Shown here piece after piece: positions 1,065-19,647 of a stretch of DNA of 28,302 bases. Origin of the DNA: a virus; IMG/VR virus record IMGVR_UViG_3300044535_001882, positions 1-28,302 of that record, one strand, 5' to 3'. The translations under genes were made by a program, and so were the position numbers. The notes below the pieces were generated by a model. It was not told where the DNA came from and did no database searches. It saw nothing but the letters and a program-made list of their open reading frames with translations. How positions within the stretch are numbered: the stretch's first letter is position 1; every line of letters begins with the position of its first letter.

Positions 1065-1072
1065 TATTTATA
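1065..1072 (-). promoter_or_regulatory. Perfect T4-type late promoter TATAAATA
   Basis: The minus strand reads TATAAATA exactly. The portal stop codon (TAA, 1070-1068) lies inside the element. The next ATG begins 5 bases downstream, so a transcript started here would have almost no leader. Confidence 0.55.
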
Positions 1073-2861
1073 CACCAGGTGCGGCTGCACCACCAGCGGG
1101 CATTACACCGCCAGGAGCAGCAGGGCCTGCGCCAGGAGTCACAGGAGGTGCCCCGCCCACTTGCGCGGTCATTCCTGCCATGTCTTCACCAGTTTGAATG
1201 TCACCTTCTAGTCCACCTGGAGTGATACCCACACTGCGCAGGTCTTGTCCTGCATTGGTAGCCATTTCAGGATCGTCGCGTTCTTCACGCCACAACTCTT
1301 CGTTTTCTTGAATTTCTTCTTCAGTCAGTCCCAAGAAACGTTGCAACAAGAAACGCTTGCTCATGTAAGGCAATGCTTCCAGCTGTGTAAATGCGCCAAT
1401 ACGTGTGGTATCCAGCTCGCTTTGGCGATAGCTGGCAAAGTTTTGAGGTGCATTAAACTTCAAAGAGAACAGGCTTGAGTCTATGTTAAACCCACGCCAT
1501 TTCATAAACATCTTGAATTCGTCGTCAAGTTTTTGCACAATTAGAGACTGCAGTCGTTCGCAATACTGATTAAATCTGTACTCTTGTATCAAGGCTGTGC
1601 CCACTTTGCCGTCACTCATGGCACGGTCTGAATCGTCAGGACCTGTGGGCAAATAGCTTGACGGCACACGCAGACCACGAGCCATTTTGTTGTTGAAATA
1701 TTTCAAGTCATCAATTTCGCCCAGATTCTGTCCGCCAGGTAGTGTTTCTACTGAGCTGCCACGTCCGTCTTGACCTTGGGGGAAGAAATAGTCTTCGTTG
1801 ATTGAAAGTGGATTGTACGAAGCATCCATCATGTTGTTGCCCCCACCGGTCATGGTGGGAATTCTGCGTTGATGCATTTCGTTTTTCACACGTTCCACAA
1901 AGGCCATGGCCAAGTGGCTGGGCATGTTGCCCACGTCAATCTTGAAGATTCTGCGCTCTGGAGCACGGCTCACACGATAGATTAGGATAGCGTCTTCCAG
2001 CAGTTCTTTTTGTTTGAACACTTTGTAGATCTGCTCTAGTATGCTACGTCCAAATGGCCAGAACACATCCAGGCCTTCGTTCAGGCTGATATGAACCACG
2101 TGCTTGGCATCCAGACAAACTTCGTTCATGGCAGTCATAAATCTTGAATTACCCACACCGCCACCTGTGCCGCCGTTGGGCATGGTGTAGTTGGCATTGC
2201 CTGATATGGTGCCGGTCACAGGGTTGGTCATGTAGTCTGTGGTGGTCTTGGCTGCCACAGTCATGTTTTGAAAGTTGGGATTGATGTCACGGATCACATA
2301 CTGCTCGGGACGCTTGCCTTCGCTTTCGTTCACAATCACACGGGCCAATTTGCTCATGTCCACCCACATCATTTCAAATGTTTCTGGGTCACGCACAAAC
2401 ACTTGATCGCCATACTTGATGGTGTTGCGGAACAGTTTGAAGATGCGTTGATCCAGCTTGTTCAGCTTGATCCACTGTTGCAGTTGTTTCTTGATGATTG
2501 AAACTTCGTTGTCTGTGGGCTTGTCACGATAATCAACTTCGAACGGTGTGCCGTTTTGTTCATTCATCTGCGTGCTGAACTCAGCAATGATGTCCAAGCA
2601 AGCATTGATCTCACTATCCATGTCCATGTTCTCGTACTGATTGTAGCGTTCAATACGGTTGGGGTGGCCTGAATAAACTTCAGGCAGTCTTGACGCATAA
2701 TTGCGGAACACAAAGTCTGCAGGCATGCCTGTGTCGTTGCCGTCATTTTTGGCATATCCAGGTAGGCCAAATTGGTTCCTGCCCGAAATTGGGCTCATCA
2801 CACCTGAAGTGTCTGCCACTTTGAAATACTTTCGCCAGCCGGGTTGTTTGGGTTCTGCCAT
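1068..2861 (-). CDS. 20: Portal vertex protein (T4 gp20 family)
   Basis: This 597-residue protein matches the T4 gp20 portal family, whose dodecamer forms the unique capsid vertex for DNA entry, packaging motor docking and neck attachment. Recognisable family stretches include YASRLPEVYSGHPNRIERY near residue 55, the MDMDSEINACLDIIAEF helix near residue 80, and the region around IYRVSRAPERRIFKIDVGN near residue 295. The last ~60 residues are Gly/Ala/Pro-rich, which looks like a flexible end. The start follows an AATAAATA late element by 7 bases with no clear Shine-Dalgarno sequence. It lies downstream of the tape measure gene and upstream of the gp67- and gp68-position genes. Confidence 0.95.
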   Translation of the reverse strand: MAEPKQPGWRKYFKVADTSGVMSPISGRNQFGLPGYAKNDGNDTGMPADFVFRNYASRLPEVYSGHPNRIERYNQYENMDMDSEINACLDIIAEFSTQMNEQNGTPFEVDYRDKPTDNEVSIIKKQLQQWIKLNKLDQRIFKLFRNTIKYGDQVFVRDPETFEMMWVDMSKLARVIVNESEGKRPEQYVIRDINPNFQNMTVAAKTTTDYMTNPVTGTISGNANYTMPNGGTGGGVGNSRFMTAMNEVCLDAKHVVHISLNEGLDVFWPFGRSILEQIYKVFKQKELLEDAILIYRVSRAPERRIFKIDVGNMPSHLAMAFVERVKNEMHQRRIPTMTGGGNNMMDASYNPLSINEDYFFPQGQDGRGSSVETLPGGQNLGEIDDLKYFNNKMARGLRVPSSYLPTGPDDSDRAMSDGKVGTALIQEYRFNQYCERLQSLIVQKLDDEFKMFMKWRGFNIDSSLFSLKFNAPQNFASYRQSELDTTRIGAFTQLEALPYMSKRFLLQRFLGLTEEEIQENEELWREERDDPEMATNAGQDLRSVGITPGGLEGDIQTGEDMAGMTAQVGGAPPVTPGAGPAAPGGVMPAGGAAAPGV

Positions 2862-2877: not shown

Positions 2878-5757
2878 TTAGTTGCTGGCCACTGCTGCCA
2901 TTCGCTCACTAGCAGTAGCAGTGCTGGCTGTGCCACGGCTGATTGCAGCCAGGTGTTCAACCATTTGTGCTTGCAGCTCAGGATCTTTTTGTTGCTGCAT
3001 TTGTGTGACAATCTGCAACATGGCATCTTTGAATTCTTTGGCAGTCTGTGTCAATGCTGTGTTGACATCAACTTTGTTCATTTCCATGACTTCTTTGACT
3101 CGCTCGCCCAGTATGTTACCCGCGTCATCACCTATCATGCGACTGCCAATGTTGGCCATACCAACATCATAGTTCTGCAACATGCCTGACTTGATAATAT
3201 CTTTCCAGGTGTTGGGATTGGTGATGATTTCATTCTGTGCATCATACGCCCCCAGTTTGGCTGCTATGTCTTTGAGTGCAGCCATGTCTGTGGTGAGTGG
3301 ACCCATTTGCGGACCAGTAAACTCATTGCCTGTGCCAAACATGTTGGCACCAAATGTGGCATCTTTCAAACTGATGCTGACATTTTGTTTGCGAGCAGCT
3401 TCTTGATTTTTAAACGCCCTCTCCATGGAGTCCAGCACAGAGTCTATGTCGGTGGTTTTCTTGGCATTGTCGTTGCCCAAGTTGATACTCACAGGTATGC
3501 TGCCGCCTTTGAGTGGCACATGTGCTTCAGGTCCTTTTTCGCCCACAATGGCCAGTTCAGGCTGTGTGCTTATACCGCCATCACCAAATTTAGGTATTTC
3601 AACGTGAAAGTGCCCACCTGTGGCCTTGGCACTGGGAGAATTGTATTCGTCATATGCTTTTGATGCGCCTAGGCTCTTGAGCAAGTCTACAATGTGCTCT
3701 CCTTCTTCTTTGGAGGGTTTTTTTCCTAACACAAAGTCCGCGGCCAGCCCTTGAGTGTGCAAACTGCGCGGAGACTTTTCATTATGAAACTGATCATTGA
3801 ATCCTGAAAAATAATTGAATCCAGGCACACTCTTTTGAATTTTTTTGGCTAGTTCAATCAAAGCAGGACTTACTTCTTGGCCCGGTGCTTGAACATCACC
3901 ATGGCCTCTAATCTGCAATCCTTCACGTGCTAAATCTTGTGCTGTCATGCCACCACTGGGTGCGCCTGCAGGTGCTGAGGTTGTGCCAGCACTGGGCATG
4001 CCGGCTGCGGCTGCCGACTGCTTTGTTGTCCCGTACTTTTCATTCATTTTTGCACGAGTTCGGTCAGCTTCCATTTGTGCCATTGCCAATTCTCGATCAG
4101 CTGCATCTTGTTCTTTTGAGCTGCCAATGCGAAATCTTTTTGGATCAAACATGCCCACGCCTGCAAACGCTTTTTCATATGCTACTTTTGCAGCTTCTAC
4201 CCGTTGTTGCGCTTCTTTTTCTTCTGAGGTTTTGTCTCTATCGTTGGCTCCTGTGAAATATTTTACAACACTAGAGTTTGTTATATCGTCTACCAACTTT
4301 AATATTGTATCAACCAGTTTGTTCAATGCACTCACTGTGTTGTCAGTTGCATTGGCCATTTTAATAGCTGCATAAGTGGCCGGCAACATACCCTTGGACA
4401 CAAAGTCCTGGGCACTTTGCATGGCCTTGAGTTGTTCCAATCGCAGATCAGTTTGTGCCTGTTGCAGTTTGTCTGCTGCCTTGCCACCGTCTACGCCTTG
4501 TTTTGCGCTGTCTTCTTTGATTTTTTTAAGTTCAGCAGCAAGATCCTTGTTAGCAAACAGTCCCATTTCAACAGCTTGGGCAAAATCAATACCAATCTCG
4601 TTGAACACTCCAGCTTGTGCCAGCATGTTCATGTCTTTGGCAAATGCACCTAATGAACGACCTGTTATCTGCGTGGCTTCCACTGCAGACATTTCCCCTT
4701 TGATCACAGCTTGAGAAACTCGCATGAGTTCGCCGTTGCTGCTGATCAGGCCTTTTTGTGCTGCTTCGGTGGTGATCATGCCAGTGCTGAGATCTCTAAA
4801 GGCCTGTCCTGCTTCTTTGCTGCGACTGGAAATCAAAAGATTAGCTTCTATCAGTCGTTCAGCTGCTGCCTCTCCTTGTGTGGCTCTGACTTCTTCTACC
4901 TTGGCACGAAAACGTTGTTCGCTGAGTGCAGCTTCTCTTTCTTTTTCGCGATCTTGACGACTTTGCCCTGTGAGCTTGGTCAGTGCATCCTGTTCAATCA
5001 AGTATTTTTTAGCACCTTCAGCCAGCTGCTGATTGGTCATGTTTTGTGCCTGTCCCAATCGTGTCTGCAGTCGTAAAAAACCCATGGTGCCAGCGTTGAG
5101 TTCTTCCTGAGTCAAACCTGCATTGTACAACTGTTCACGAAACGGTTCCATGGCCTTGCCGATGTCAGCAAAGGCCTTGCGTCCTGCAAACACCGAACCA
5201 CCAAACAGGGCCAGATCTCGACTGCTGTCGTTGATCATGCTCACATAGCCATCGAGATCCTGAACACCCAATCCCAGTTTTTGCAAGTCGCCGTAGATGC
5301 CCATGAGTCCATCGCTGGCTGCACCGCCACTCTTGCTGAGTTTCTGGAAACCAGTATTCAACGAATCGGCCATTTCTGCCGAGGCCTTGTACATCTTGGC
5401 TATGCCGCCCACTGCCAAGGTCATGCCTGCTACAAAAGCCTTGATAATAGGTCCGCCGGGAATCATCAGGGTCAATGCTGCACCTGCTGCCATAGCAGCG
5501 TCAGCCATGCTGTCTACACTGCTGTTGAATGCTGCTGCGCCTTTTTTACCTTCGTACATGGCACCAGCAGCTTCCATGCCTGCCTTGGCCAGCGAGGTCA
5601 CAGCTTGGCCGCCCAGCGCCAATTTCTTGTTATAATCCGCCTGAGCTTGTTCCAGTCTTTTTAGTTCGTCTGTGGTTTCTTTGGTCACATAGCCGTGTTC
5701 TTTCAAGTCTTTGTAGACTTGATCTATAATTGCATCCATTTCGTTTTTGTCAGCCAT
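2878..5757 (-). CDS. Tail tape measure protein with embedded M15-type peptidase domain
   Basis: This 959-residue protein is read from MADKNEMDAI; an upstream in-frame extension to 6045 would run through the divergent gp26 gene and is rejected. Residues 86-120 are a hydrophobic Ala/Gly-rich segment and much of the first 560 residues is helical, as in tape measures. Residues ~660-720 carry zinc peptidase M15-type signatures: S-x-H-x-x-G-x-A-x-D with H667 and D674, and an H-F-H pair at 716-718. Just after comes a GDGGISTQPELAIVGEKGPEA stretch with the GEKGPE motif common in tape measure C-termini. The expected role is to set tail length and, through the peptidase, to cut peptidoglycan cross-links during DNA entry. 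A TATAAATA late element lies 25 bases upstream. The peptidase call rests on motifs only. Confidence 0.85.
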   Translation of the reverse strand: MADKNEMDAIIDQVYKDLKEHGYVTKETTDELKRLEQAQADYNKKLALGGQAVTSLAKAGMEAAGAMYEGKKGAAAFNSSVDSMADAAMAAGAALTLMIPGGPIIKAFVAGMTLAVGGIAKMYKASAEMADSLNTGFQKLSKSGGAASDGLMGIYGDLQKLGLGVQDLDGYVSMINDSSRDLALFGGSVFAGRKAFADIGKAMEPFREQLYNAGLTQEELNAGTMGFLRLQTRLGQAQNMTNQQLAEGAKKYLIEQDALTKLTGQSRQDREKEREAALSEQRFRAKVEEVRATQGEAAAERLIEANLLISSRSKEAGQAFRDLSTGMITTEAAQKGLISSNGELMRVSQAVIKGEMSAVEATQITGRSLGAFAKDMNMLAQAGVFNEIGIDFAQAVEMGLFANKDLAAELKKIKEDSAKQGVDGGKAADKLQQAQTDLRLEQLKAMQSAQDFVSKGMLPATYAAIKMANATDNTVSALNKLVDTILKLVDDITNSSVVKYFTGANDRDKTSEEKEAQQRVEAAKVAYEKAFAGVGMFDPKRFRIGSSKEQDAADRELAMAQMEADRTRAKMNEKYGTTKQSAAAAGMPSAGTTSAPAGAPSGGMTAQDLAREGLQIRGHGDVQAPGQEVSPALIELAKKIQKSVPGFNYFSGFNDQFHNEKSPRSLHTQGLAADFVLGKKPSKEEGEHIVDLLKSLGASKAYDEYNSPSAKATGGHFHVEIPKFGDGGISTQPELAIVGEKGPEAHVPLKGGSIPVSINLGNDNAKKTTDIDSVLDSMERAFKNQEAARKQNVSISLKDATFGANMFGTGNEFTGPQMGPLTTDMAALKDIAAKLGAYDAQNEIITNPNTWKDIIKSGMLQNYDVGMANIGSRMIGDDAGNILGERVKEVMEMNKVDVNTALTQTAKEFKDAMLQIVTQMQQQKDPELQAQMVEHLAAISRGTASTATASERMAAVASN

Positions 5758-5799: not shown

Positions 5800-6642
5800 A
5801 TGACCCAATCTGCCAATCCGCTGAAAGCATTTTTTAGACAACCTGCCATCTACTTGAAGCTGCCCAGTGACGGTGCTTACTGGCCCGAAGATGCCATTGA
5901 ATTTCCGGCCAACCGCGAACTGCCAGTTTATCCCATGACTGCTGTGGACGAAATCACTTATCGCACACCAGACGCACTGTTCAGCGGACAAAGTGTGGTC
6001 AACGTGATCGAGAGCTGTGTGCCTGCTGTGAAAAACGCCTGGCAAACTCCTTTTATTGATGTCAACAGCATACTAATTGGCATACGCATTGCCAGCTATG
6101 GACACAACATGGAAGTTAGCACTCAGTGTACCAATTGTGAAAACGAAGATGATTTTGAACTGGATCTACGCCAGGTTCTGGACCAAATGCAGTTGCCCGA
6201 CTATCAACAGCAGGTCAGCATTGGAGATCTTGAAATTGTGTTTCGTCCCATGACTTACCAAGAACAAAACGCCAGCAACATGCAGCAGTTTGAACAACAA
6301 CGCATGATCCGCATGATTCCTGGAGCTGACATTCCTGAAGAAGAAAAAATTCAACGCATGGCCGAAGTCATGCGCAGCATCACTGCACTCACAGTCAAGG
6401 CCATTACCATGAGTATTGCCATGATACGCACACCTGGTGCCATAGTGACCGACAGCGAGCATATTGAAGAATTTTTAAACAACTGTGATCGCACTGCATT
6501 TGCTGTGATACGTGATCATGCCATTTCATTGAGACAAAACAGTGAACTCAAACCAGTGCAGTTGAAATGCACTGCCTGTGAAACCGAATACGAACAACAG
6601 CTGACCCTGGACATGGCAAATTTTTTCGCACCCGCCTCCTGA
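5800..6642 (+). CDS. 26: T4 gp26-like baseplate/tail assembly protein, probable short form of a frameshifted chaperone
   Basis: This 280-residue protein belongs to the T4 gp26 baseplate family. The conserved core is at residues ~66-105 (VVNVIESCVPAVKNAW, then ILIGIRIASYGHNM). Two CxxC pairs, C110/C113 and C257/C260, look like the halves of a zinc ribbon. A clear AGGTGA ribosome site precedes the start. T4 gp26 is shorter (208 residues). The gene lies back to back with the tape measure, where lambda-type phages carry their tail assembly chaperone. Just before the stop, a slippery heptamer and a perfect downstream stem predict a -1 shift that would extend the protein into the next frame (see 6618-6694). 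The family call is secure; its role as tail assembly chaperone is inference. Confidence 0.9.
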   Translation: MTQSANPLKAFFRQPAIYLKLPSDGAYWPEDAIEFPANRELPVYPMTAVDEITYRTPDALFSGQSVVNVIESCVPAVKNAWQTPFIDVNSILIGIRIASYGHNMEVSTQCTNCENEDDFELDLRQVLDQMQLPDYQQQVSIGDLEIVFRPMTYQEQNASNMQQFEQQRMIRMIPGADIPEEEKIQRMAEVMRSITALTVKAITMSIAMIRTPGAIVTDSEHIEEFLNNCDRTAFAVIRDHAISLRQNSELKPVQLKCTACETEYEQQLTLDMANFFAPAS

Positions 6643-6694
6643 GTCTGGACAACGAGCAAATTTCCAAGTACATAGACAAATTGGATCAGGAGGC
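6618..6694 (+). promoter_or_regulatory. Programmed -1 ribosomal frameshift signal (slippery heptamer plus stem)
   Basis: A_AAT_TTT (6618-6624) is in the zero frame of the gp26-like gene and fits X_XXY_YYZ. Nine bases later GCCTCCTGA (6634-6642) pairs perfectly with TCAGGAGGC (6686-6694), with a 43-base loop. The zero-frame stop TGA (6640-6642) lies inside the 5' arm. Spacing and geometry are typical of -1 frameshift sites. Confidence 0.75.
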
Positions 6695-6857
6695 CGCACA
6701 AATCAAACAAGAAAGTTTCAAATTGGCCTGGTACATGCGAGGCGGCATCAGTTATCACGAAGTGCTGCATCTTAGCAATGCTGAACGCCAGGCCATTAGC
6801 GATTTGGCCAAAGAAAATATCGAAACCACAAAGAAAACCAATTTACCATGGTTCTAG
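6624..6857 (+). CDS. -1 frame extension of the gp26-like protein (gp51 position)
   Basis: Read after a -1 slip at 6624, this frame adds 77 residues to the first 275 of the gp26-like protein, giving a 352-residue fusion. The added piece is helical and ends with ...MRGGISYHEVLHLSNAER... and TTKKTNLPWF. Short proteins with this MRGG...TTKKT pattern follow gp26 in related phages, as I recall, and T4 places gene 51 directly after 26. The frame is open from 6582, and no ATG precedes the domain. The first ATG (6735) would give only 40 residues and lacks a ribosome site; a TTG at 6681 also lacks one. This supports synthesis by frameshift over independent initiation. The stop overlaps the next gene's start by 10 bases. 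Confidence 0.75.
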   Translation, partial: FRTRLLSLDNEQISKYIDKLDQEAAQIKQESFKLAWYMRGGISYHEVLHLSNAERQAISDLAKENIETTKKTNLPWF

Positions 6858-9276: not shown

Positions 9277-10273
9277 CTTGTTGTTTATTCCATATCATAA
9301 CACCGGTGGGCATTTTATTGATTGGTCATTGTATTTTGTCACTGGACAACAACAGTATGCAAAAAAAACCGGTCAGCTGGTTTCTATAGTACAAGATTTT
9401 AATGTAGTTGCCAAGAACTGGCATCAGCATCAGCCGGTCATAATTTATGGTTTTGATGATCTAAAAACCACACTGAAAATGCTAGATGATAGCAATACTA
9501 ACTTGTACGTATCATTGCTGCCACTACCAACAGCGGTAAAATTATTGTTTGGTGTGGATCTAACCAGTGCCACACCTGATCAAATGACTACCGCACACTC
9601 ATACGTGCAACAAGACTTTGAAAAAATGCTGCAATGGACACAAAATCAAGGGTTAATACCTGTTATTTTTGATTACTGCAAATCAGACTTTATGAGTATG
9701 ATTTACAACGATAGATACCCGGTGGATTGGACCAATCAACCACTTAACGATTCTTTTGGATTGCAAGAAATATATGAACGCACATTTTTTAGCAAAATCA
9801 CTGCAAAATTTGACCAACAAATATGGGATCAAAGAGAAAAGGCCTCTTTGATAGGGTACCACCCGATGGATTTTAAAGTACATCAGTTAATCAATCACTC
9901 GTTGGCACATCTTTATTACACCACTGATGATATATGGAATAATATGCCAAACATACTGTATGAAATTTGCACAGTGTTGCAGCTATCAATAGATCCAGAG
10001 AAGTTTGGCGTTTGGGAAAAAATATATGCACAATGGCGTACTGTTCACGATCCGTATTTTGGAAGACATTTTGATCGCATTATTGACAGCATTGTCAACG
10101 GGAATTACATGAGACTAGATCGATTCAAGTTAAATTTTTTCCAAGAAGTACTGATTCAAAACGCATTAATTACTCGACATAATTTAAATTTGAAAACTTG
10201 GAATCTGACTAAGTTTCCTAATAACACACAAGAATTACATAGTTTGTTAGAATCCAACATACACGTTCTCTAA
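9269..10273 (+). CDS. Unknown protein, possibly sulfotransferase-like
   Basis: The start is taken at 9269 (MTNLLFIPYHNTGGHFIDW), overlapping the upstream stop by 8 bases; a longer in-frame form would extend into the previous gene. The 334-residue protein opens with a hydrophobic strand followed by a Gly/His turn and helix (NTGGHFIDWSLYFVTGQ), which could be a nucleotide- or sulfonate-binding loop. Its C-terminal third (NILYEICTVLQLSIDPEKF, then WEKIYAQW) recalls the last helices of sulfotransferase-like proteins. These hints are weak and I do not assign a function. The stop overlaps the oxygenase start (TAATG). Confidence 0.6.
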   Translation: MTNLLFIPYHNTGGHFIDWSLYFVTGQQQYAKKTGQLVSIVQDFNVVAKNWHQHQPVIIYGFDDLKTTLKMLDDSNTNLYVSLLPLPTAVKLLFGVDLTSATPDQMTTAHSYVQQDFEKMLQWTQNQGLIPVIFDYCKSDFMSMIYNDRYPVDWTNQPLNDSFGLQEIYERTFFSKITAKFDQQIWDQREKASLIGYHPMDFKVHQLINHSLAHLYYTTDDIWNNMPNILYEICTVLQLSIDPEKFGVWEKIYAQWRTVHDPYFGRHFDRIIDSIVNGNYMRLDRFKLNFFQEVLIQNALITRHNLNLKTWNLTKFPNNTQELHSLLESNIHVL

Positions 10274-10818
10274 TGATTGAATCAACACACCATAGTTTTA
10301 TCAACAAAGACTGGTTGCAATCGTTGTCTGACGAATTGCTAAATGCTAACGGCTGGGTGTTTAGACAAAAATTTTGGCGGTATTATCTAGCACAAGGATT
10401 ACAGCCTTATGTGGAAAGCAATGCAGCAACTTGGTATCACAACCAGACTGATGCATTATACTACACCATGACATCACAGTGGCGCAAGTTGTTTGACAAA
10501 GTATATGATCTGGCAGGTTCCAACTTTCAACTCATGAGATATGCCTTGACTGGACAAACTCAAAATCAACAACCAGTATTGCACACTGATGTTAGTGAAA
10601 ATCTCAACGGCTGTTATAAAAGTTATTTGATATATCTCAACAACGTTGCCACACAAGGCTCTACAGATTTTGTAGTAGATAACAAATTAATACATCAAGA
10701 ACCGCCCGAACCAGGCAAACTGATTGTGTTTGACAGTAAAATTTTACACTGCGGTAATCCACCAACACAACCAGATTTTTTGCGATTAAGTATTGTATTA
10801 CACGGAATACACACATGA
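10273..10818 (+). CDS. 2-oxoglutarate/Fe(II)-dependent dioxygenase-like protein
   Basis: The 181-residue protein shows the double-stranded beta-helix metal site: H104 and D106 (PVLHTDVSEN), distal H159 (SKILHCGN), and R171 for 2-oxoglutarate (FLRLSIVLHG). A GSTDF strand near 129-133 and the turn PEPGKLIVFDS at ~146-155 fit the prolyl-hydroxylase-type layout found often in aquatic phages. Such enzymes hydroxylate peptides, nucleobases or small molecules; the substrate here cannot be read from sequence. It is the last gene of the plus-strand accessory row and is followed by the hairpin-rich noncoding stretch. Confidence 0.8.
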   Translation: MIESTHHSFINKDWLQSLSDELLNANGWVFRQKFWRYYLAQGLQPYVESNAATWYHNQTDALYYTMTSQWRKLFDKVYDLAGSNFQLMRYALTGQTQNQQPVLHTDVSENLNGCYKSYLIYLNNVATQGSTDFVVDNKLIHQEPPEPGKLIVFDSKILHCGNPPTQPDFLRLSIVLHGIHT

Positions 10819-11212: not shown

Positions 11213-11605
11213 TTAAAGTTTAATATGATTATGATAATGCAATAGAAACGAAGTAAAATCTTTATCAAATAAGTCAATTGTTACAATTCCGTTGAATTTC
11301 CAAACAGTAGTAAAATTCATCGTGCCTGACTGACCTGGATTGTATTCGCACATTTGCAATAGTGTTTGTTGATTAATTTCTATATTGCCTAACCATAAAT
11401 TAGAAAGTTTAACAAATTTATTATTTTGATTATTGAGTATGATTGAAATTTTGTTTGGTAATTTTATTTTACAATTTATTTTTACAGGGAGATGGTGTAG
11501 TTGTTTTATATCGGCTAAAATTGTTTCATTCCTGTCTTGTACGATTATATCAACAGATTTGATATCTTGTTCAAATTCTAGATACAAACTCAGATCTGTA
11601 TTCAT
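11213..11605 (-). CDS. Small unknown AT-rich protein
   Basis: The 130 residues are mostly beta-strand-like, with alternating hydrophobic residues (VKINCKIKLPNKISIIL, then LSNLWLGNIEI) and an aromatic end (WKFNGIVTIDLF, LLHYHNHIKL). No catalytic motif or family is recognised. The DNA is strongly AT-rich. The ATG overlaps the stop of the B12-type radical SAM gene as ATGA, so it is translationally coupled and is the last gene of the long minus-strand operon. It might be a partner or binding module of that enzyme, which is inference from coupling only. Confidence 0.6.
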   Translation of the reverse strand: MNTDLSLYLEFEQDIKSVDIIVQDRNETILADIKQLHHLPVKINCKIKLPNKISIILNNQNNKFVKLSNLWLGNIEINQQTLLQMCEYNPGQSGTMNFTTVWKFNGIVTIDLFDKDFTSFLLHYHNHIKL

Positions 11606-12960
11606 ACTACTAAAAAGTTACATTCTTCGGTGCATACTTTTGTAAGTTCGTCATAATATGTTTTTCTTTCTGCTGGAGATATGTTTAACTCTTGATTAAC
11701 CCAATTGGTGCCAACTCCAACCTCTGAATCTATCTTTATAATATTATATTTGTTAGCATTGCGATATAATTGTGTACTAGGTAATAAACTCAACGGCGAT
11801 ATATTTAATTGTTTGATAGGGTTATTTGCAAAATGTTTTCGATCCCTAAACCATTGTTTAATAGTTTCGTAGTCTTCAAACGTTTCTGATGGATATCCAG
11901 AGATCATCAATAAGTTCACTGGTATATTATATTTTTGTGCCATTTGTAAATGATAATCAAGATCAGAGTTTTCAAAATGTTTTCCAAGAAGGTGGCGTAC
12001 TCGGGGTATTACACTTTCAACACCAAAAAATAATTGGGCATTATTTTGTTGAAGATGAGCCCACATTTCTTCAGGATGGTTGGTATGAGGACGCACAATA
12101 AACGACCCCTCCCAACTTATTTGTTCGCTTCTAAATTTTGTTTGATTATAATCTGCAATCTTAGATATTAACTTTCTGAACTCTTTGAGATTACCATTGG
12201 TTATACTGCTTCTAAAATCAAAATGATGAATATTGTATTTGTTGATCTGAAAAATTATCTCATCAAAAATAGAATCGGCTGTTTTATATTGAAACTTTTT
12301 CCATAATTCAATTACATCGCAAAATTCACAATTCCTAACACACCCTCGACTGTCAATTAATGGTATAGACGGTTCGCCGTACCAGTATAGATTGTAATCA
12401 GAATAATCAGGATATGGCAATTCATTTAAATTGTCAACTGGTTGCCAACTTGTAGTATTAATTCCTGGGTAATCTGTATTGCCCTGAATATACTTTACAA
12501 AAGATATTTCTCCGTCACCGCTAATATAGTCGTTAATTAACTTTGCTTTTTTTATTTTTTCAGCGTAGTTGAAATTAACTATGCCCGGTCCACCTATTAC
12601 AATTATAGTGTCCGGAACCATCTGTTTTAACAACGCACATAACCAAGTTGTAAATACTTGACAGTTATCGGCAAACAAACTAAGTCCAATAACTGTGGGG
12701 TTAAATTTAACAATTTGGGTCGCACAGTAATTCAACATTAAATTAATTTCGTCAATAATCTCATCATGTATGATTTGTTCGTAAAAAAAATCTCTTAGAT
12801 AAGGTTGATTCGTACTATTTTGAAATTTTAAAAAAATATCTACATTAAGATCTAATGCTATACTAGAAATGCCATGTAATGCCAGTGCAGATTTAAGCAC
12901 AGCCGGACCGGCTAATACTCGATTTGTTTCAATCAATGGCATTGATGCAATGACTATCAT
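11602..12960 (-). CDS. B12-binding-type radical SAM enzyme
   Basis: The 452-residue protein has the two-domain plan of class B radical SAM enzymes. An N-terminal Rossmann-like domain contains GGPG (residues 123-126) and SGDGE (147-151), both usual in cobalamin-binding radical SAM proteins. The radical SAM core has the cluster ligands C207, C211 and C214 in SRGCVRNCEFCDV, then the barrel with FFGVES and MISGYPSET. The classical base-off DxHxxG motif is not visible, so cobalamin may bind base-on or not at all. Relatives methylate or rearrange unactivated carbons in natural products, lipids and cofactors. The DNA is much richer in A/T than neighbouring phage genes (bases 12781-12840 contain 12 G/C), suggesting acquisition from another source. 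Confidence 0.85.
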   Translation of the reverse strand: MIVIASMPLIETNRVLAGPAVLKSALALHGISSIALDLNVDIFLKFQNSTNQPYLRDFFYEQIIHDEIIDEINLMLNYCATQIVKFNPTVIGLSLFADNCQVFTTWLCALLKQMVPDTIIVIGGPGIVNFNYAEKIKKAKLINDYISGDGEISFVKYIQGNTDYPGINTTSWQPVDNLNELPYPDYSDYNLYWYGEPSIPLIDSRGCVRNCEFCDVIELWKKFQYKTADSIFDEIIFQINKYNIHHFDFRSSITNGNLKEFRKLISKIADYNQTKFRSEQISWEGSFIVRPHTNHPEEMWAHLQQNNAQLFFGVESVIPRVRHLLGKHFENSDLDYHLQMAQKYNIPVNLLMISGYPSETFEDYETIKQWFRDRKHFANNPIKQLNISPLSLLPSTQLYRNANKYNIIKIDSEVGVGTNWVNQELNISPAERKTYYDELTKVCTEECNFLVV

Positions 12961-12965
12961 TTTAA

Positions 12966-13394
12966 TTAAATTTTATCTTTGATGTGTGATCCATGCACAC
13001 GTACTTGTATATGGCCGTTGTAATAATCTGCTGATTCCAATACTCGCCTTGCAAACTGTTCTCGGGCCTCAATGTAACTGCATTCACTCTTGCTTTTACA
13101 GTAGTAAAGTATTTCTCTGGAGAAGTTTTCAGTGCCTAAAGTGATTACGTCTGCGGTTAATTCTGGGCTTGACCCGTAGTACTCACGCCAGTCTGAGTCG
13201 ACCTTGGTGCGTATCTTTTTCCGCTTTTTGATGCCGTTTTTTTGTTTTACTGTCTTGTACGTTGTTTTTGAAAATTTTGCTAATTTTTTGCCTATGTACT
13301 TGCGTCCAGATAGATTATTTGTGATCTGATAAACAAATCCCACACATTCTTCGGGCAGTGTCTCAACTGGGGTGTCTTGATATCGCCATGTCAT
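12966..13394 (-). CDS. GIY-YIG family endonuclease-like protein
   Basis: The 142 residues carry the GIY-YIG signature: GFVYQITN at 19-26 and KYIGKK at 32-37 correspond to the GIY and YIG strands. Downstream come DWREYYGSS and an acidic residue in SYIEAREQFA that matches the catalytic Glu position. A Lys/Arg-rich insertion (KNGIKKRKKIRTK) could bind DNA. Free-standing GIY-YIG proteins of this form are common in T4-like phages, some acting as homing nucleases. It lies 5 bases upstream of the B12-type radical SAM gene and could have mobilised the surrounding accessory block, though that is not shown. Confidence 0.85.
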   Translation of the reverse strand: MTWRYQDTPVETLPEECVGFVYQITNNLSGRKYIGKKLAKFSKTTYKTVKQKNGIKKRKKIRTKVDSDWREYYGSSPELTADVITLGTENFSREILYYCKSKSECSYIEAREQFARRVLESADYYNGHIQVRVHGSHIKDKI

Positions 13395-13427: not shown

Positions 13428-14018
13428 TTATGCCTTGTGTTCAAAGTTCACGTAAAAAGTTGCCTCTTCTATCACAGTGTTTGGGGACACTGCGGTAGCG
13501 TATCTTATAAAATTGCTGATATCTGTTAATGCTATACCGTTTCCAGTCCAGGTGGGTCTGCTACGGCTTAATTCTGTGTCCAAGCGATCGGGCGTGATCA
13601 GTGTGGTTCGGAACTGCACTAGATTTTGTTTAAATGACTGTGTGCCCTGCCTGCTGGCATGTGCTAGTGCAGCCTTGGCCACACGGTAGGTTTCAAATCT
13701 GGGTTCAGCAGCAACAATATGGTGCTCGCCCACTGATCCAATGTTGAAAATATGTCCGCTCTTGCCGGCGTCTTTCCACTTGTCGTATACTGCCATGTAC
13801 AAGTTTGTTTGCGCAAAGTTAGCCCAGGCCTCCTGCGGAGGACCATCAAATGCATTGTTAACAAACACATCATAATTCAAACTTTGTTGAGCAATGAGTT
13901 TGACAGCTTGTTCGTCGGTGATGTCCAAGTTTGTGGCCCTGCTGACACTGTCTGCACCAAATACATCCACTAGGTGTTTGCCTAGTCCTCGGTTACCGCC
14001 TGTTACTAACATTTTCAT
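13428..14018 (-). CDS. Short-chain dehydrogenase/reductase
   Basis: The start is taken at 14018 because it forms an ATGA overlap with the upstream stop; an alternative start at 14033 adds MGSIT. The 196-residue Rossmann protein has the nucleotide loop TGGNRGLG (residues 6-13), an NNA motif (VNNAFDG), the catalytic-type Ser in NIGSVG, and YRVAK as the Y-x-x-x-K pair. It is shorter than the usual ~250 residues but shows all active-site elements. It likely reduces or oxidises a small carbonyl/alcohol substrate with NAD(P). It sits directly after the SPASM-type radical SAM gene, suggesting steps in one pathway. Confidence 0.85.
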   Translation of the reverse strand: MKMLVTGGNRGLGKHLVDVFGADSVSRATNLDITDEQAVKLIAQQSLNYDVFVNNAFDGPPQEAWANFAQTNLYMAVYDKWKDAGKSGHIFNIGSVGEHHIVAAEPRFETYRVAKAALAHASRQGTQSFKQNLVQFRTTLITPDRLDTELSRSRPTWTGNGIALTDISNFIRYATAVSPNTVIEEATFYVNFEHKA

Positions 14019-15109
14019 CGTGATTGATCCCATACTTTTGTAAACTTTTCACCGCAGGTCATTGCACATTCAAACAGTCTGTTGCTGTTGTTGAATGATG
14101 CTGTAAGATCCTGCCAAAATTCATTGGCAAATATTTCTGGCAGTGTGTTGTGATTTATGTTCAAATTGTCTAGTCCATACCGTTCTAAAAATTCACGCAC
14201 TTGATTTTTACCATTCACGGTACTCAACGGGTTTGCGCCAGGCAATGTGCCATCTCTAAATCTTGCGTCATACAAGTTGTGATTGAAAAAATTACAAGGC
14301 AACACAACACCTTCGGCATTGATGGCCACTTTTTTACCCATCAACGCATCACACTTTATTAACGTGGTATTAAAATATTCTCCAACATCTTGATATTGCT
14401 GTTTGAGGTCAGGCAATGATTGCATGCTACGATTTTGATATTTTTCATCTCGCGGTGGCTCTAACACATAGTCAGCACCTGCTACAGGCCAAGAGTTCAT
14501 CTTGTTCATAGTGGTATGATTTAAAAATCTACCAGTCTTGCGGATCAACACATTGTGAAAGCCCAGAGCCTTGCCATACTGCTGAACTAGATCAACTTGA
14601 TATTCGTTATGCCGGAACACAATAAAATTCCACTGTGCTCGCCCACCTGCGTTGATAAATGCTCTTGCATTATCAATGACCTTGTTGTATTTTACATTCT
14701 TTCTGTACAAATGTAAAGTGTCTGCCAGTCCGTCAATACCAAAGTCTATCTGTCCATATCTGTTCATGATTCTGGCTATCTCTGCCCAGTAGTCAGGATC
14801 ATGTACTCCGCCATTGGTGTGTATGTACAACCATAGAGTGGGGTTCTTGCGTCTAAAGTCACGCAAGATGTCCAAGAAGTCTGGATGCATTATGGGGTCA
14901 CCATAGCTGCCACAGAAAAATACTTGTCGCAGGCGTTGACATAATTCTGCATCAAATGCCTGATCAATTGTTGCTCGTGGCAAGTGTGTAAGTGGCATAT
15001 AGGAATTGATACCTGTGCCCAAGTTGTTGCGTGGACATTGCGGACATGCGGCATTACAATATGTTGTAATCTCAATCTGATATTCATCTATGTTTGCAAA
15101 ATCAAGCAA
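14015..15109 (-). CDS. Radical SAM enzyme with SPASM/twitch-type C-terminus
   Basis: The 364-residue protein carries C18, C22 and C25 in YCNAACPQCPR, the C-x3-C-x2-C ligands of the radical SAM cluster, at the N-terminus as in SPASM proteins. The barrel has GSYGDPIMHPDF and IHTNGG. Further cysteines at C253, C272 (GVVLPCNFFN), C348 and C352 (FECAMTCGEKF) could ligate an auxiliary iron-sulfur cluster. SPASM enzymes often modify peptides or proteins, for example in RiPP pathways, but no precursor peptide gene is seen nearby. It overlaps gp46 by 8 bases and is coupled to the SDR gene, within the operon started upstream of gp55. Confidence 0.88.
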   Translation of the reverse strand: MLDFANIDEYQIEITTYCNAACPQCPRNNLGTGINSYMPLTHLPRATIDQAFDAELCQRLRQVFFCGSYGDPIMHPDFLDILRDFRRKNPTLWLYIHTNGGVHDPDYWAEIARIMNRYGQIDFGIDGLADTLHLYRKNVKYNKVIDNARAFINAGGRAQWNFIVFRHNEYQVDLVQQYGKALGFHNVLIRKTGRFLNHTTMNKMNSWPVAGADYVLEPPRDEKYQNRSMQSLPDLKQQYQDVGEYFNTTLIKCDALMGKKVAINAEGVVLPCNFFNHNLYDARFRDGTLPGANPLSTVNGKNQVREFLERYGLDNLNINHNTLPEIFANEFWQDLTASFNNSNRLFECAMTCGEKFTKVWDQSR

Positions 15110-17183
15110 TGTCTACATCCGTGTTGTAACTGGTAAAGCCGTTTTCTTTCACAACTTTGAGAATATTCTCCACACGGCCGGCCAGTTCATCTCTATGACT
15201 CACAAGCCAAATACTCTTGTGACGCTCACGAGTCATCTTCTTCAACAAGGCCAAACTGGCTTCAACACCTTGTGTGTCCAGCCCAGAGTCAATCATTTCG
15301 TCAATGAATAGTATGTTGATAGGGTGATACAAACTTTCCCACACATCACGGAACGCCCAACTCATACTTAATATCAAGCGATTGCGTTCACCACGACTCA
15401 GGTTGTCAAAGTCCAGTTCACGTCCCAGTTCTTCAATGCTCACACTTAGATCGTTTTGGAACTTCACAGTGTGCGGCAGCCCAATGCGATCCAGGTAGTG
15501 CGTGAGTCTTGCGTTCAGATAACTCAAGTTTTGGTCGATGATCTTTTTACGAACAAACGAGTCTTTACTTGTGAGCAGTTTGAGCAAGAACTCTTGATGA
15601 TCTTGTACTTTGGTCAGCTCGTTGATTTTATCGTAGTCAACTGTCTGCAAGGCTTGTTGTTGCATGTCCTCAATCTGTTCGCTGTAGGGATCAGTTTCGG
15701 CATGCTTGCTGGTGATCTGTTGTAGTAAATTGTTGACTTGTGTGGAGTGTTTGATGGCCTGTGCTTCTGTGTCGTAGTGTGTGACAGGTGGTGCGCCCAG
15801 TTCTACAGGCACGTAACCTGCAAGTTGCTCAACATAAGGATTGATTTCTGCTTGCTTGTCTGCAATTTTTTGCTGTATATTTTCTATTTCACTGCTGTGT
15901 CGAATGGCTTCGGCTTCGGTTCGATAATGTGTTGTGGGCTGGGTGCCCAATTCGCCTAATTTTAACAATGCGTCTGTGTTTTCTATCCACTGGCCGTTGG
16001 TGGCCAAGTACTGCAATGCGGATTCTTGTAGCAGTTTACGCTTGGCTTCCAACACACTTTCATGAGCACCGTCGTGGAACTCTTGACCACAAGCATAACA
16101 TTTGTGTGCTTCTAGTTCAGCAATTTCTGCCCGGAGTTTGTCAGAAGTTTTTAGTTCTCGGGCTTCGTCTGCTACACATCTTGCAATGAGTTTTTCAAGT
16201 TCAGCAATGTCCTTGGCCTGTTGATTGTATGCTGCCAAGTCTTGGTGTGCTTGTAGTTCTGCCACAATATCAATGTGACTGAGTTTGTTGTAACTGTCTT
16301 GTAACGCAGAGATTTCTTTAGTTTGTGTTTGCTGCCACGCAGTTTGATATGCCAGCAGTCGATCATGTGCATCTGCTTGCTTTTTGCGCTCGTTCCACAA
16401 GGCAAGTTCTTTGTGAGCCAACAACTCTACTTCAATGTTGACTCGTGTCAAGTCATCGTATTGCCCCACTAGATAAGCCAAATCGCTATCGTATTTCTTT
16501 TGCCACAGGCCTTGACGTCTACGCAGGCTTTCAATTTGTTCTTCAATACGTTTGTTGGCTTCTTGCACAGCACGTACTCTAAACTCTTCTGCTGTGATTG
16601 AATCCTTGGTCACCTTGTTGAGTTCTTTGATGCGTTCAGCACGTTCGCTCAGCATGGTAATGCCTAGCAACTGTTCAATTATGGTGCGTTGCTCATTGGC
16701 TTTCAAACTTAGAAAAGGTTCTGTGTAAGTGTTCAAGGCCAAGATATGTTTGAACATGTCATGGCTCATGCCAAACACTGATTCAATAGCATCTTGTGTT
16801 TCACGGCTGTCACCTTGTGCATCGTCTGTGGCAGTTTGTTGTTCGCTGTCCACATAGAATCGCAACACGTTAGGCTTGCGCCCACGTTCAATTTTGTATG
16901 TTTTACCATTGACGGAGAAATCCAGGCTGACCAACATGCCTTTGGCATTGGTCTTGTTTACCAGATTGTCCTTGCGAATGTTGCTGAGTGCTTGTCCATA
17001 CATGGCATAACTCAAGGCATTAATAATGGTGGTCTTGCCTGTGCCATTGCGGCTGCCGTCTCCGCCCAGGTCCAAGTTTTCGCCCAATACCAGGGTAAGA
17101 TCTTGACGGTCAAAGTCAATGCCTTGTGTGGCGTTGCCCACACTCATAAAGTTCTTGACAGTGAGATTTTTAATTCGTATCAT
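15102..17183 (-). CDS. 46: Recombination endonuclease subunit gp46 (Rad50/SbcC type)
   Basis: The 693-residue SMC-like ATPase is the partner of gp47 in resecting DNA ends for recombination-dependent replication. Walker A is at 41-52 (GDGSRNGTGKTT), the zinc hook is C362-x-x-C365 (KCYACGQ), the ABC signature is LSRGERNR (595-602), and Walker B is ILFIDEM (624-630). The long coiled coil lies between. It holds internal duplications: residues ~411-453 recur at ~461-503 with a 50-residue period (both contain HY.TEA.AI.HS and end .PY.EQ), and on the other arm ~248-268 recurs at ~304-324. The start overlaps the SGNH-like gene by 14 bases. Confidence 0.95.
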   Translation of the reverse strand: MIRIKNLTVKNFMSVGNATQGIDFDRQDLTLVLGENLDLGGDGSRNGTGKTTIINALSYAMYGQALSNIRKDNLVNKTNAKGMLVSLDFSVNGKTYKIERGRKPNVLRFYVDSEQQTATDDAQGDSRETQDAIESVFGMSHDMFKHILALNTYTEPFLSLKANEQRTIIEQLLGITMLSERAERIKELNKVTKDSITAEEFRVRAVQEANKRIEEQIESLRRRQGLWQKKYDSDLAYLVGQYDDLTRVNIEVELLAHKELALWNERKKQADAHDRLLAYQTAWQQTQTKEISALQDSYNKLSHIDIVAELQAHQDLAAYNQQAKDIAELEKLIARCVADEARELKTSDKLRAEIAELEAHKCYACGQEFHDGAHESVLEAKRKLLQESALQYLATNGQWIENTDALLKLGELGTQPTTHYRTEAEAIRHSSEIENIQQKIADKQAEINPYVEQLAGYVPVELGAPPVTHYDTEAQAIKHSTQVNNLLQQITSKHAETDPYSEQIEDMQQQALQTVDYDKINELTKVQDHQEFLLKLLTSKDSFVRKKIIDQNLSYLNARLTHYLDRIGLPHTVKFQNDLSVSIEELGRELDFDNLSRGERNRLILSMSWAFRDVWESLYHPINILFIDEMIDSGLDTQGVEASLALLKKMTRERHKSIWLVSHRDELAGRVENILKVVKENGFTSYNTDVDIA

Positions 17184-17880
17184 GTTCTAAAATGTATTTT
17201 GCAATGTGTTTGTGACCTTGGGACAAATAGTGCCCAGTGGCACCAGTAGCAAATGAATCTTTGGTAAGCCACCAGGTATTCCAGCCAATATAATGATCAA
17301 AATTTATTTGAGTCACTAACTGTTGAATTTCTTTGTGTTCTTGATACAATTGATCATCATTCATAAGATCAAAGCACAACAGTGATTGTACACTAGAAAC
17401 AAAGTCGGGCCAAGAAGTGGTCCACCGATCAATCTGATTGTTGCTGGCATTGACCATTATGTATGGTTTCTTTATAGACTCCAAATATCGTTGCACCATG
17501 ATCATGTTTTGTAACCACAATTTAAAACTGTACAAGTCGTTGTGCCACACAGCATAATGCATTTTTCCATAGTTGACAAAATTTGAATCATTGCCATAAA
17601 GACTGTTGATCAAATTGGAATTGAAATTCACAACATAATTGTTGTCAGCTCGATATCGTGTAAATCTTTCGATATAAGTCCAAGCAATATAAATTTTATC
17701 AAACTCATGAGCATTTTTTATTGTTCTGTAGACAATGTGATCATTTGCGTTTCCGCTCACAGCATCGTTCAAAAAGTCACAACCAATCTTGTTGGACAAC
17801 ACGGCAGGCCATGCTTGAGATTCGGGCTGGGTTAAATCATCGCCATATGTGTGACTGCATCCGTTGAAATACAATCTCAT
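17170..17880 (-). CDS. SGNH-hydrolase-like protein between gp47 and gp46
   Basis: The 236-residue protein shows SGNH-type blocks: GCSHTYGD (residues 7-14) with S9 as candidate nucleophile, SGNAND (42-47), and a C-terminal GHYLSQGHKHIA (from 216) supplying candidate histidines. SGNH enzymes are esterases, deacylases or acyltransferases on sugars and lipids. It is a relative of the gene at 18874-19647; residues 103-142 align without gaps to 113-152 of that protein (Y.K.HY...., WL, PY). It is embedded between the two nuclease subunits with an ATGA overlap to gp47 and 14 bases into gp46. The substrate is unknown. Confidence 0.7.
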   Translation of the reverse strand: MRLYFNGCSHTYGDDLTQPESQAWPAVLSNKIGCDFLNDAVSGNANDHIVYRTIKNAHEFDKIYIAWTYIERFTRYRADNNYVVNFNSNLINSLYGNDSNFVNYGKMHYAVWHNDLYSFKLWLQNMIMVQRYLESIKKPYIMVNASNNQIDRWTTSWPDFVSSVQSLLCFDLMNDDQLYQEHKEIQQLVTQINFDHYIGWNTWWLTKDSFATGATGHYLSQGHKHIAKYILEHDTN

Positions 17881-18893
17881 AAGTTTTGGTATATTTGCAA
17901 CAGCAGTTTGTTGTCGTAGAATTCTGATTCAATGTTGGTGAGTTGGTCAGTAACAATTTGATCCACTGACTCAAATTTTACATCACCTGGCGCAAGGTCC
18001 ACATCCACACCCGAAGTCTTGTTAGGTATTAGTGCCATTTCACGCAGGTTATAATCTCGAATAAATGTTTCTTTGATAAAGTTGGCTTCTTCGTATGAGA
18101 TCTCAATGTCCAAGTTCACACGTACATGCATTTTGGGCGCCAGTAATGTGGCTGCATTGTCAATTAAATTGGCCAAGCCATGTACTCGGTATCTGGGTTG
18201 ATCAGGCCAGGCATGATACTCGGGCTCCTTGCCCCATTCCAAGATCATCATGCCACGTGCATCATCTCCAGCGTCGGCATAGTTGTGCGGAAAGCAGTTG
18301 CCAATATATGTAATGTTGTTGGCAGTTTGACGTTTGTGAAAATGTCCAGTGAACACATGGTCAAATCCGCCAAAGTCTCCACGCTGTATGGTGCCATGAT
18401 CCGGCATCTGCACCATGGCATTCATGTAGTAGCCAGGCAGTTCAAAGTGCCCAAACATGTACCGACCTTTTAGTTTGGGTATGCGTTTGTGGTCATCGCC
18501 GCACAGCCAAGGAGCAATAACAACGTCACCGCTACTGAACCAATCATTGCAAATTTGAACTTTCGGCAAATGTTTGGCCCACTCCACACTTTGAATATCG
18601 CGCTTGTCTCGATAATAAAGATCGTGATTGCCAGGAATAAAATATACCCGATCAAAGTTGTCATTCATGTGCTCCAGGGCCCGGAGACTGTAACTCAGGG
18701 TAACAATATTTAAGCTGGCCCGGTTGTTGTGCCAGTCGCCTAGGAACATGCAAGTTTCGCAACCCTGTTCTCGTGCCGTAGCAGTGGCCCATTTCACAAA
18801 ATCCAAACAGTCGTCATTGTGTGTTTGACTGTTGCTTTTGAGCCCAAAATGTATGTCTGTAAAGACCGCGGCTTTACGAAATAGATTGCTCAT
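17877..18893 (-). CDS. 47: Recombination endonuclease subunit gp47 (Mre11/SbcD type)
   Basis: The start at 18893 (MSNLFRKAAVFTDIHFG) has an AAGG ribosome site; an in-frame extension to 18947 lies inside the upstream gene. The 338 residues contain the calcineurin-like phosphoesterase motifs in order: D13-x-H15, GDWHNN with D53, GNHD with N89/H90, H149, and GHFH with H184/H186. These bind two metals for nuclease action on DNA ends with gp46. In T4 genes 46 and 47 are close neighbours; here an SGNH-like gene separates them and another precedes gp47. The 20-base overlap with the upstream gene suggests coupled translation. Confidence 0.95.
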   Translation of the reverse strand: MSNLFRKAAVFTDIHFGLKSNSQTHNDDCLDFVKWATATAREQGCETCMFLGDWHNNRASLNIVTLSYSLRALEHMNDNFDRVYFIPGNHDLYYRDKRDIQSVEWAKHLPKVQICNDWFSSGDVVIAPWLCGDDHKRIPKLKGRYMFGHFELPGYYMNAMVQMPDHGTIQRGDFGGFDHVFTGHFHKRQTANNITYIGNCFPHNYADAGDDARGMMILEWGKEPEYHAWPDQPRYRVHGLANLIDNAATLLAPKMHVRVNLDIEISYEEANFIKETFIRDYNLREMALIPNKTSGVDVDLAPGDVKFESVDQIVTDQLTNIESEFYDNKLLLQIYQNL

Positions 18894-19647
18894 TAAGACC
18901 TTTGAAAAATTCAACAAGATTATCTGACAATTTTCTATTAGATTCACGACCTGGGTGTGCTAAATCGTCGGCAAGATCAGTTTGCATATCAGAAAACGAT
19001 GAAGTTGTTAGATTCAACCAATGTGTTTGATCCAGGGCACCTACTAATTGCTTCAAAACATTAAGTTTTGTTAAGATGTAGTCGTCTGGTCGATTATCAA
19101 AATCTAACATTGATTTCAATGCATCTATACTATAGAATCCATTGCAGTATGATGCACTATTAAGAGCTGTGATGTTGTTGTCAAATCCCTTGATAAACAA
19201 GTACGGAATGTTTTTATATTGTAGCATGCTTTCTAGCGCCAGGCACTTTAGTAACCAATGCTTTGTATTAACATAACTGTTGTCAAAAAATGAGTAATGC
19301 AATTTGGCATAAGTTTTTGTATACTCTGAGTTGTTTTGAAACCCTTTCGGAACACCTCCGTTTATTATAGTGAAATCATCAACATTTTTTTCGGATTCAT
19401 ACACCCAACAGCGACCTATACTGCTCCACATCACGACAACTAAATCAAATTGATCAACAATTATTGCCTCACTGGTTCTACAAAAAATCTCGTCGTTAGA
19501 CATTCCACCAATGGCGTAATTTATAAGTCGATACCCAGTTTGTTGACAAAACAGATGTGGCCAATGGTGCTTTGGCTGATTCTCGGGAGTAAATCCAGAA
19601 TTAGCTGTAAACGAACACCCAACAAATAGTGCTTTTTTGCTACTCAT
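18874..19647 (-). CDS. Second SGNH-hydrolase-like protein, upstream of gp47
   Basis: The 257-residue protein has FVGCSFTANSG with S12, GGMSNDEI (47-54) and a late DDLAHPGRESNRKL with H231, in the layout expected for an SGNH fold (Ser, Gly/Asn, late His). Its middle aligns gap-free with the SGNH-like protein at 17170-17880, so the two are diverged paralogues. Codon use is AT-rich compared with gp47. Its ATG lies within a 10-base direct repeat shared with the end of gp55, and a TATAAT sits between the two copies. The substrate is unknown. Confidence 0.65.
   Translation of the reverse strand: MSSKKALFVGCSFTANSGFTPENQPKHHWPHLFCQQTGYRLINYAIGGMSNDEIFCRTSEAIIVDQFDLVVVMWSSIGRCWVYESEKNVDDFTIINGGVPKGFQNNSEYTKTYAKLHYSFFDNSYVNTKHWLLKCLALESMLQYKNIPYLFIKGFDNNITALNSASYCNGFYSIDALKSMLDFDNRPDDYILTKLNVLKQLVGALDQTHWLNLTTSSFSDMQTDLADDLAHPGRESNRKLSDNLVEFFKGLNEQSIS

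Follow-up and report, generated by a model that had tools for sequence, protein, structure and literature searches.

A predicted programmed −1 frameshift at a conserved T_TTT_TTY site in the gp26-family tail assembly chaperone gene of a T4-superfamily phage related to jumbo phages

The gp26-family gene of the 28 302-nucleotide virus fragment analysed here (IMG/VR record IMGVR_UViG_3300044535_001882, hereafter the window) very probably gives rise to two tail assembly chaperones (TACs), a short form (TAC-N) and a long form of 352 aa (TAC-NC), by −1 programmed frameshifting beside a probable tape-measure gene. Comparison with other phages identifies the locus, with high confidence, as the TAC pair of a phage that belongs to the T4 superfamily and has Atu_ph07, Phosso and RaK2 among its jumbo-phage relatives. 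A frameshift yielding such a pair had been proposed in a preliminary description of this DNA, and it is supported by the conservation of the slip site and its spacing and by the lack of a conserved start with a Shine–Dalgarno (SD) sequence for the second domain. The features of the locus are as follows.

1068–2861, minus strand: portal protein (T4 gp20 family), used as synteny anchor; PF07230, 3.5e-103
2878–5757, minus strand: probable tape measure protein, 959 aa, divergent neighbour of TAC-N; synteny with RaK2 and a motif
5800–6642, plus strand: zero-frame gene TAC-N (T4 gp26/PF12322 family), 280 aa; matches to PF12322 and phrog_150
6621–6627, plus strand: slippery heptamer T_TTT_TTC, in frame and classical; read directly, invariant in 61 of 61 distinct rows
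6628–6633, plus strand: spacer of 6 nt between heptamer and stem; read directly
6627–6857, plus strand: −1 extension with the TAC-C domain, 76 codons past the slip and then the stop, predicted fusion of 352 aa; open frame, 146 IMG/VR relatives
6634–6642, plus strand: 5′ stem arm GCCTCCTGA, holding the zero-frame TGA (6640–6642); pairs 9/9 with 6686–6694
6686–6694, plus strand: 3′ stem arm TCAGGAGGC; pairs 9/9 with 6634–6642

Frameshifting at poly-T sites in TAC genes of T4-like phages is already known, and this locus adds another case. The TAC genes of T4-like phages were identified by Vladimirov, Gautam & Davidson (2022, Virology 566:9–15); citing this work, PMC12846349 reports poly-T −1 signals in their TAC-N genes, and PMC10885494 reports separate short and long genes in some T4-like phages. 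The preliminary description, which knew of no frameshift in gp26 of T4-like phages, is therefore wrong on this point. The present analysis adds the extent of conservation, the correction of the heptamer, a direct contrast with the T4 sequence, and a clade-specific stem with a shifting 3′ partner; TAC frameshifting is thereby extended across a large, mostly uncultured clade related to jumbo phages.

The zero-frame protein exceeds the curated cut-off of PF12322 in a profile search (1.1e-13, 51.8 bits, cut-off 24.5) and matches phrog_150 at 5.3e-16. It carries two CxxC pairs, C110/C113 and C257/C260; these cysteine positions are invariant in alignments A2 and A5, except C260 in A5, where it is kept in at least 90% of the rows. 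The AlphaFold model of TAC-N has a pLDDT of 87, and its best fold matches in the viral library are entries of T4-like phages named ‘baseplate hub assembly protein’; fold and sequence searches of the PDB gave no match. The neighbourhood is T4-like (gp20 portal, gp25 and gp46/47-like genes), with genes for a gp20 portal, GPW_gp25, SMC/AAA and Metallophos proteins in the 28.3-kb fragment. By TAC-N, the closest named phages are the jumbo phages Phosso and Atu_ph07 (30–34% identity), followed by the 121Q/Munch/RaK2/GAP32/CBB group and by Pseudomonas phages such as MIJ3. Most of the jumbo phages fetched have a portal gene, a large divergent structural gene, gp26 and a short ORF in this order; the upstream gene order differs in Vibrio 2.275.O, XacN1, RAS14 and Atu_ph07.

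The 2878–5757 gene occupies the same position as a RaK2 ‘virion structural protein’ annotated as similar to tape measure protein, and its 959-aa translation contains the stretch ELAIVGEKGPEAHVPL, which we take to be a tape-measure-type motif. No Pfam or PHROG family matches this protein, and its BLASTP comparison with the RaK2 and Phosso counterparts is not significant; the predicted short and long forms are encoded beside a gene whose probable tape-measure identity comes from synteny and motif. Another part of this protein, SLHTQGLAADF ... GGHFHVEIP, is similar to an M15-type peptidase motif, which Pfam does not report.

The end of the zero-frame gene reads GAC ATG GCA AAT TTT TTC GCA CCC GCC TCC TGA. 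The in-frame A_AAT_TTT (6618–6624) named in the preliminary description, the perfect 9-bp stem burying the zero-frame stop and the open −1 frame are all present in this direct reading. A_AAT_TTT overlaps T_TTT_TTC, and a slip on either heptamer would give the identical fusion (...MANFFRTRLL..., 352 aa). In relatives, A_AAT_TTT is not conserved (AAG/CAG TTT, CAT TTT, CGT TTT and GAT TTT occur) and T_TTT_TTY is kept instead. The codon before TTT varies (AAT, AGT, CAT, CGT, TAT, GAT, GCT), and A_AAT_TTT was therefore rejected as the operative heptamer; the conserved signal is T_TTT_TTY. The 9-base spacer given previously holds when counted from A_AAT_TTT, but becomes 6 nt when counted from T_TTT_TTC.

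There are 146 IMG/VR relatives of the −1 product, the best 80 of which were used; all 80 listed rows have the TTTTTTC run at the same place. In the 61 distinct aligned close IMG/VR relatives, T_TTT_TTC never varies, and the zero-frame stop falls at the same codon throughout. From phenylalanine codon usage alone, TTT TTC is expected with p = 0.23 per sequence; the rows are related and no joint probability is claimed. The in-frame T_TTT_TTY followed by an open −1 frame is also found in all 12 named jumbo phages, despite only 22–34% TAC-N identity to the window. These phages were picked by the zero-frame protein alone, and their selection is therefore unbiased by the C domain. The motif is further kept in P-SSM2, Syn9, S-PM2, HTVC008M, phiM12, phiW-14, KVP40 and Aeh1. 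A mechanical screen of 105 loci for an in-frame TTTTTTY, a zero-frame stop within 40 codons and a −1 frame open for 50–130 codons found a single site in 99 loci, an extra chance site in one locus and none in T4. For distant scans of viral contigs, alignments A1 and A2 offered no sufficiently conserved stretch. An in-frame heptamer of the X_XXY_YYZ type is thus conserved among relatives, as is its spacing across the related phages, a comparison that the preliminary description had proposed.

In nearly all of the phages checked, gp26 carries T_TTT_TTY at its end; the exception is T4, in which the slip site was lost and the gene duplicated. T4 gene 26 reads GAG TTC TTT GAG, with both phenylalanines retained and the slip site gone. 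Frameshifting is reportedly conserved in several T4-like groups, T4 being said to use genes 26 and 51. Single-sequence comparisons with T4 gp26 and gp51 gave weak scores, and a PF12322 search of whole records was used instead. In T4 it finds, besides gene 26, gene 51 on the other strand, which is also a full-length PF12322 gene; the other T4-superfamily records that matched have one match each, and SCTP-2 has none over the threshold. T4 gp51 consists of another complete gp26-type domain followed by a C-terminal tail. The SYxxxxxLSxxER segment of TAC-C aligns by hhalign with gp51 222–246 as a weak match (probability 1.5%, E 0.033). From these comparisons, the counterpart of the −1 domain in gp51 is most likely just the C-terminal tail. 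The earlier proposal that gp26 plus a domain in the position of gp51 is the T4-type counterpart is inexact as to gp51, itself a full-length PF12322 copy that carries this tail.

From 6582, the −1 frame runs uninterrupted up to its stop codon at 6855–6857. Over the 61 rows, stops are absent from the −1 frame and present in 57 rows in the +1 frame, and variation in the −1 frame is biased to its third positions. In the stretch from the zero-frame stop to the 3′ arm, the −1 frame has a pN/pS of 0.57 (0.59 after thinning), and the other two frames have values of 0.94 and 1.28. Judged from these substitution patterns, purifying selection acts on the −1 frame immediately past the zero-frame stop, ahead of any usable start. 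The AlphaFold model of TAC-C is helical (pLDDT 85), and a viral fold search with it gave no match. The −1 domain is missed or truncated in the public annotations of RaK2 (L098, 4849–5214), MIJ3 (L099, 4852–5076) and Atu_ph07 (L094, 4843–4945), and is entered in other phage records as a hypothetical protein of its own; the long form is often cut short or absent in public annotations.

The fold of the downstream 78 nt was compared with 200 shuffles of synonymous codons in which the −1 protein and its codon set were fixed. The window has z = −2.74, only 0.5% of the codon-preserving shuffles being as good, and the mean over 85 sequences, which are related and hence non-independent, is z = −2.05. 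With a spacer of 6 nt, this structure lies within the range of 5–9 nt downstream of the heptamer, its pairing partner not being fixed across clades. RNAalifold found no single consensus structure in the 61-row alignment, and pairs were therefore counted on named stems within clades. In the clade of the window, a 7-bp core (columns 14–20/68–74) is mostly kept, and double changes in the 9-bp helix replace C-G by U-A and A-U by G-C. The 9-bp helix surpasses every 3′ shuffle on cells paired and covariation score; a control slid by +1 has a slightly higher covariation (0.157 versus 0.137 for the helix), but far fewer cells paired. The relatives L088, L092, L078, Atu_ph07 and Phosso have the 5′ arm in an unchanged position, but its partner lies about 7–10 columns further on; one pair of this related stem occurs as A-U, G-C and U-A. 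A sizeable minority of sequences (L020, L032, L061, L071, L074, L077, L085) has a weak stem or another one, and in some rows it has no clear counterpart.

The window and its near relatives thus give good support for a predicted stimulatory stem, the details of which turn over. The 9-bp stem of the preliminary description is perfect in the window but not universal: most close relatives share the 7-bp core, and other clades have different stems in this position. A tentative reading is that this stem with its 43-nt loop, whose 5′ arm is fixed and whose 3′ arm is rebuilt at differing downstream positions in sister clades, might be a fast-evolving stimulator tuned to the ratio of short to long chaperone, a device undescribed for T4-like phages.

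We infer the occurrence of the shift, its efficiency and the chaperone function along the following lines. Most ribosomes would terminate at 6640–6642 and produce TAC-N. A minority would slip by −1 at T_TTT_TTC, aided by the stem 6 nt downstream, and would read the −1 frame to 6857, yielding TAC-NC. If the pair works like lambda G/GT, coating of the tape measure protein would fall to the N domain and recruitment of tail tube subunits to the C domain, and the virion would contain neither form.

The downstream domain might instead be a gene in its own right, whose translation would begin by reinitiation or internal initiation, either at the overlap CTGA or at a start behind the AGGAGG of the 3′ arm. 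In the window, CTG does overlap the TGA, and AGGAGG stands 8 nt ahead of an ATC codon; yet the CTG codon is CTA in many relatives, and the domain is kept in relatives that lack AGGAGG. An ATG overlaps the stop as ATGA in Phosso, where a separate ORF is annotated, and in Atu_ph07, but these are only two of the 12 named jumbo phages. Ahead of any usable start, the −1 codons (FFRxRLL) are conserved and show purifying selection. The preliminary description held that the second domain has no usable start of its own, and no conserved start with an SD sequence was found in the 61 rows, the best candidate, a conserved ATG at codon 39, lacking an SD in all 61. Purifying selection in the −1 frame, together with the lack of a conserved start with an SD, disfavours an independent gene, which we consider highly improbable. 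The ATGA of Phosso (L093, about 4828–4834) and Atu_ph07 (L094, about 4837–4843) is in the −1 frame at the TAC-N stop, and translational coupling there could supplement frameshifting.

Slippage of RNA polymerase, rather than of the ribosome, could also join the two frames, since all copies have a run of six T (eight in HTVC008M). Six T is, however, a short run for efficient polymerase slippage, and the conserved register T_TTT_TTY with a stem at ribosomal spacing suits ribosomal slippage better, which makes the transcriptional route extremely improbable. A further reading takes PF12322 at its family name, as a baseplate hub component in accordance with the name of gp26 in the T4 literature, and the −1 domain as a minor variant, structural or for hub assembly, and not as a chaperone of the lambda type. 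The gene nevertheless adjoins a probable tape measure gene and has short and long forms, and T4-like genes of this kind have been reassigned as TACs in print (Vladimirov 2022, as cited in PMC10885494 and PMC12846349); we consider the hub reading unlikely.

The predicted ribosomal frameshifting in a TAC gene places the locus next to several known systems. It shares with the T4-like TAC genes (26/51) the gp26 family as TAC-N, the short and long forms and the poly-T −1 site (PMC12846349), and differs from them in that its jumbo-related clade is uncultured and has a downstream stem of its own. T4 itself is unlike this locus in having two genes and no shift, with TTC TTT in gene 26; a 2016 review likewise describes G–T frameshifting as widely conserved ‘except T4’ (PMC5009743). 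Lambda gpG/gpGT resembles the locus in that its TAC gene adjoins the tape measure gene and undergoes a −1 shift close to its end, giving short and long forms (PMC5009743), but belongs to another protein family, with another downstream RNA, and the tape measure gene is divergent here. The TAC genes of Vandenendeviridae and Andersonviridae, as in phage Adele (PMC12846349), also have a −1 shift at a poly-T site ending TAC-N, and their downstream part is often annotated as a separate hypothetical gene, as in relatives of this locus; in contrast, they use a GTTTTT motif and occur in different phage families.

Rfam and tRNA scans of the 28.3-kb window were empty. Elsewhere in the window, there are a 2OG-Fe(II) oxygenase-like gene (phrog_61/81; under the Pfam cut-off) and two radical-SAM genes, at 10273–10818, 11602–12960 and 14015–15109, one of the radical-SAM genes having a weak match to a B12-binding domain. 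A gene for a SegE-type GIY-YIG endonuclease (PF19835) lies at 12966–13394 on the minus strand. A metallophosphatase gene is flanked by two genes of the unknown family PF19547 (DUF6071), at 17170–17880 and 18874–19647 (minus strand), the match of the former being below the curated cut-off.
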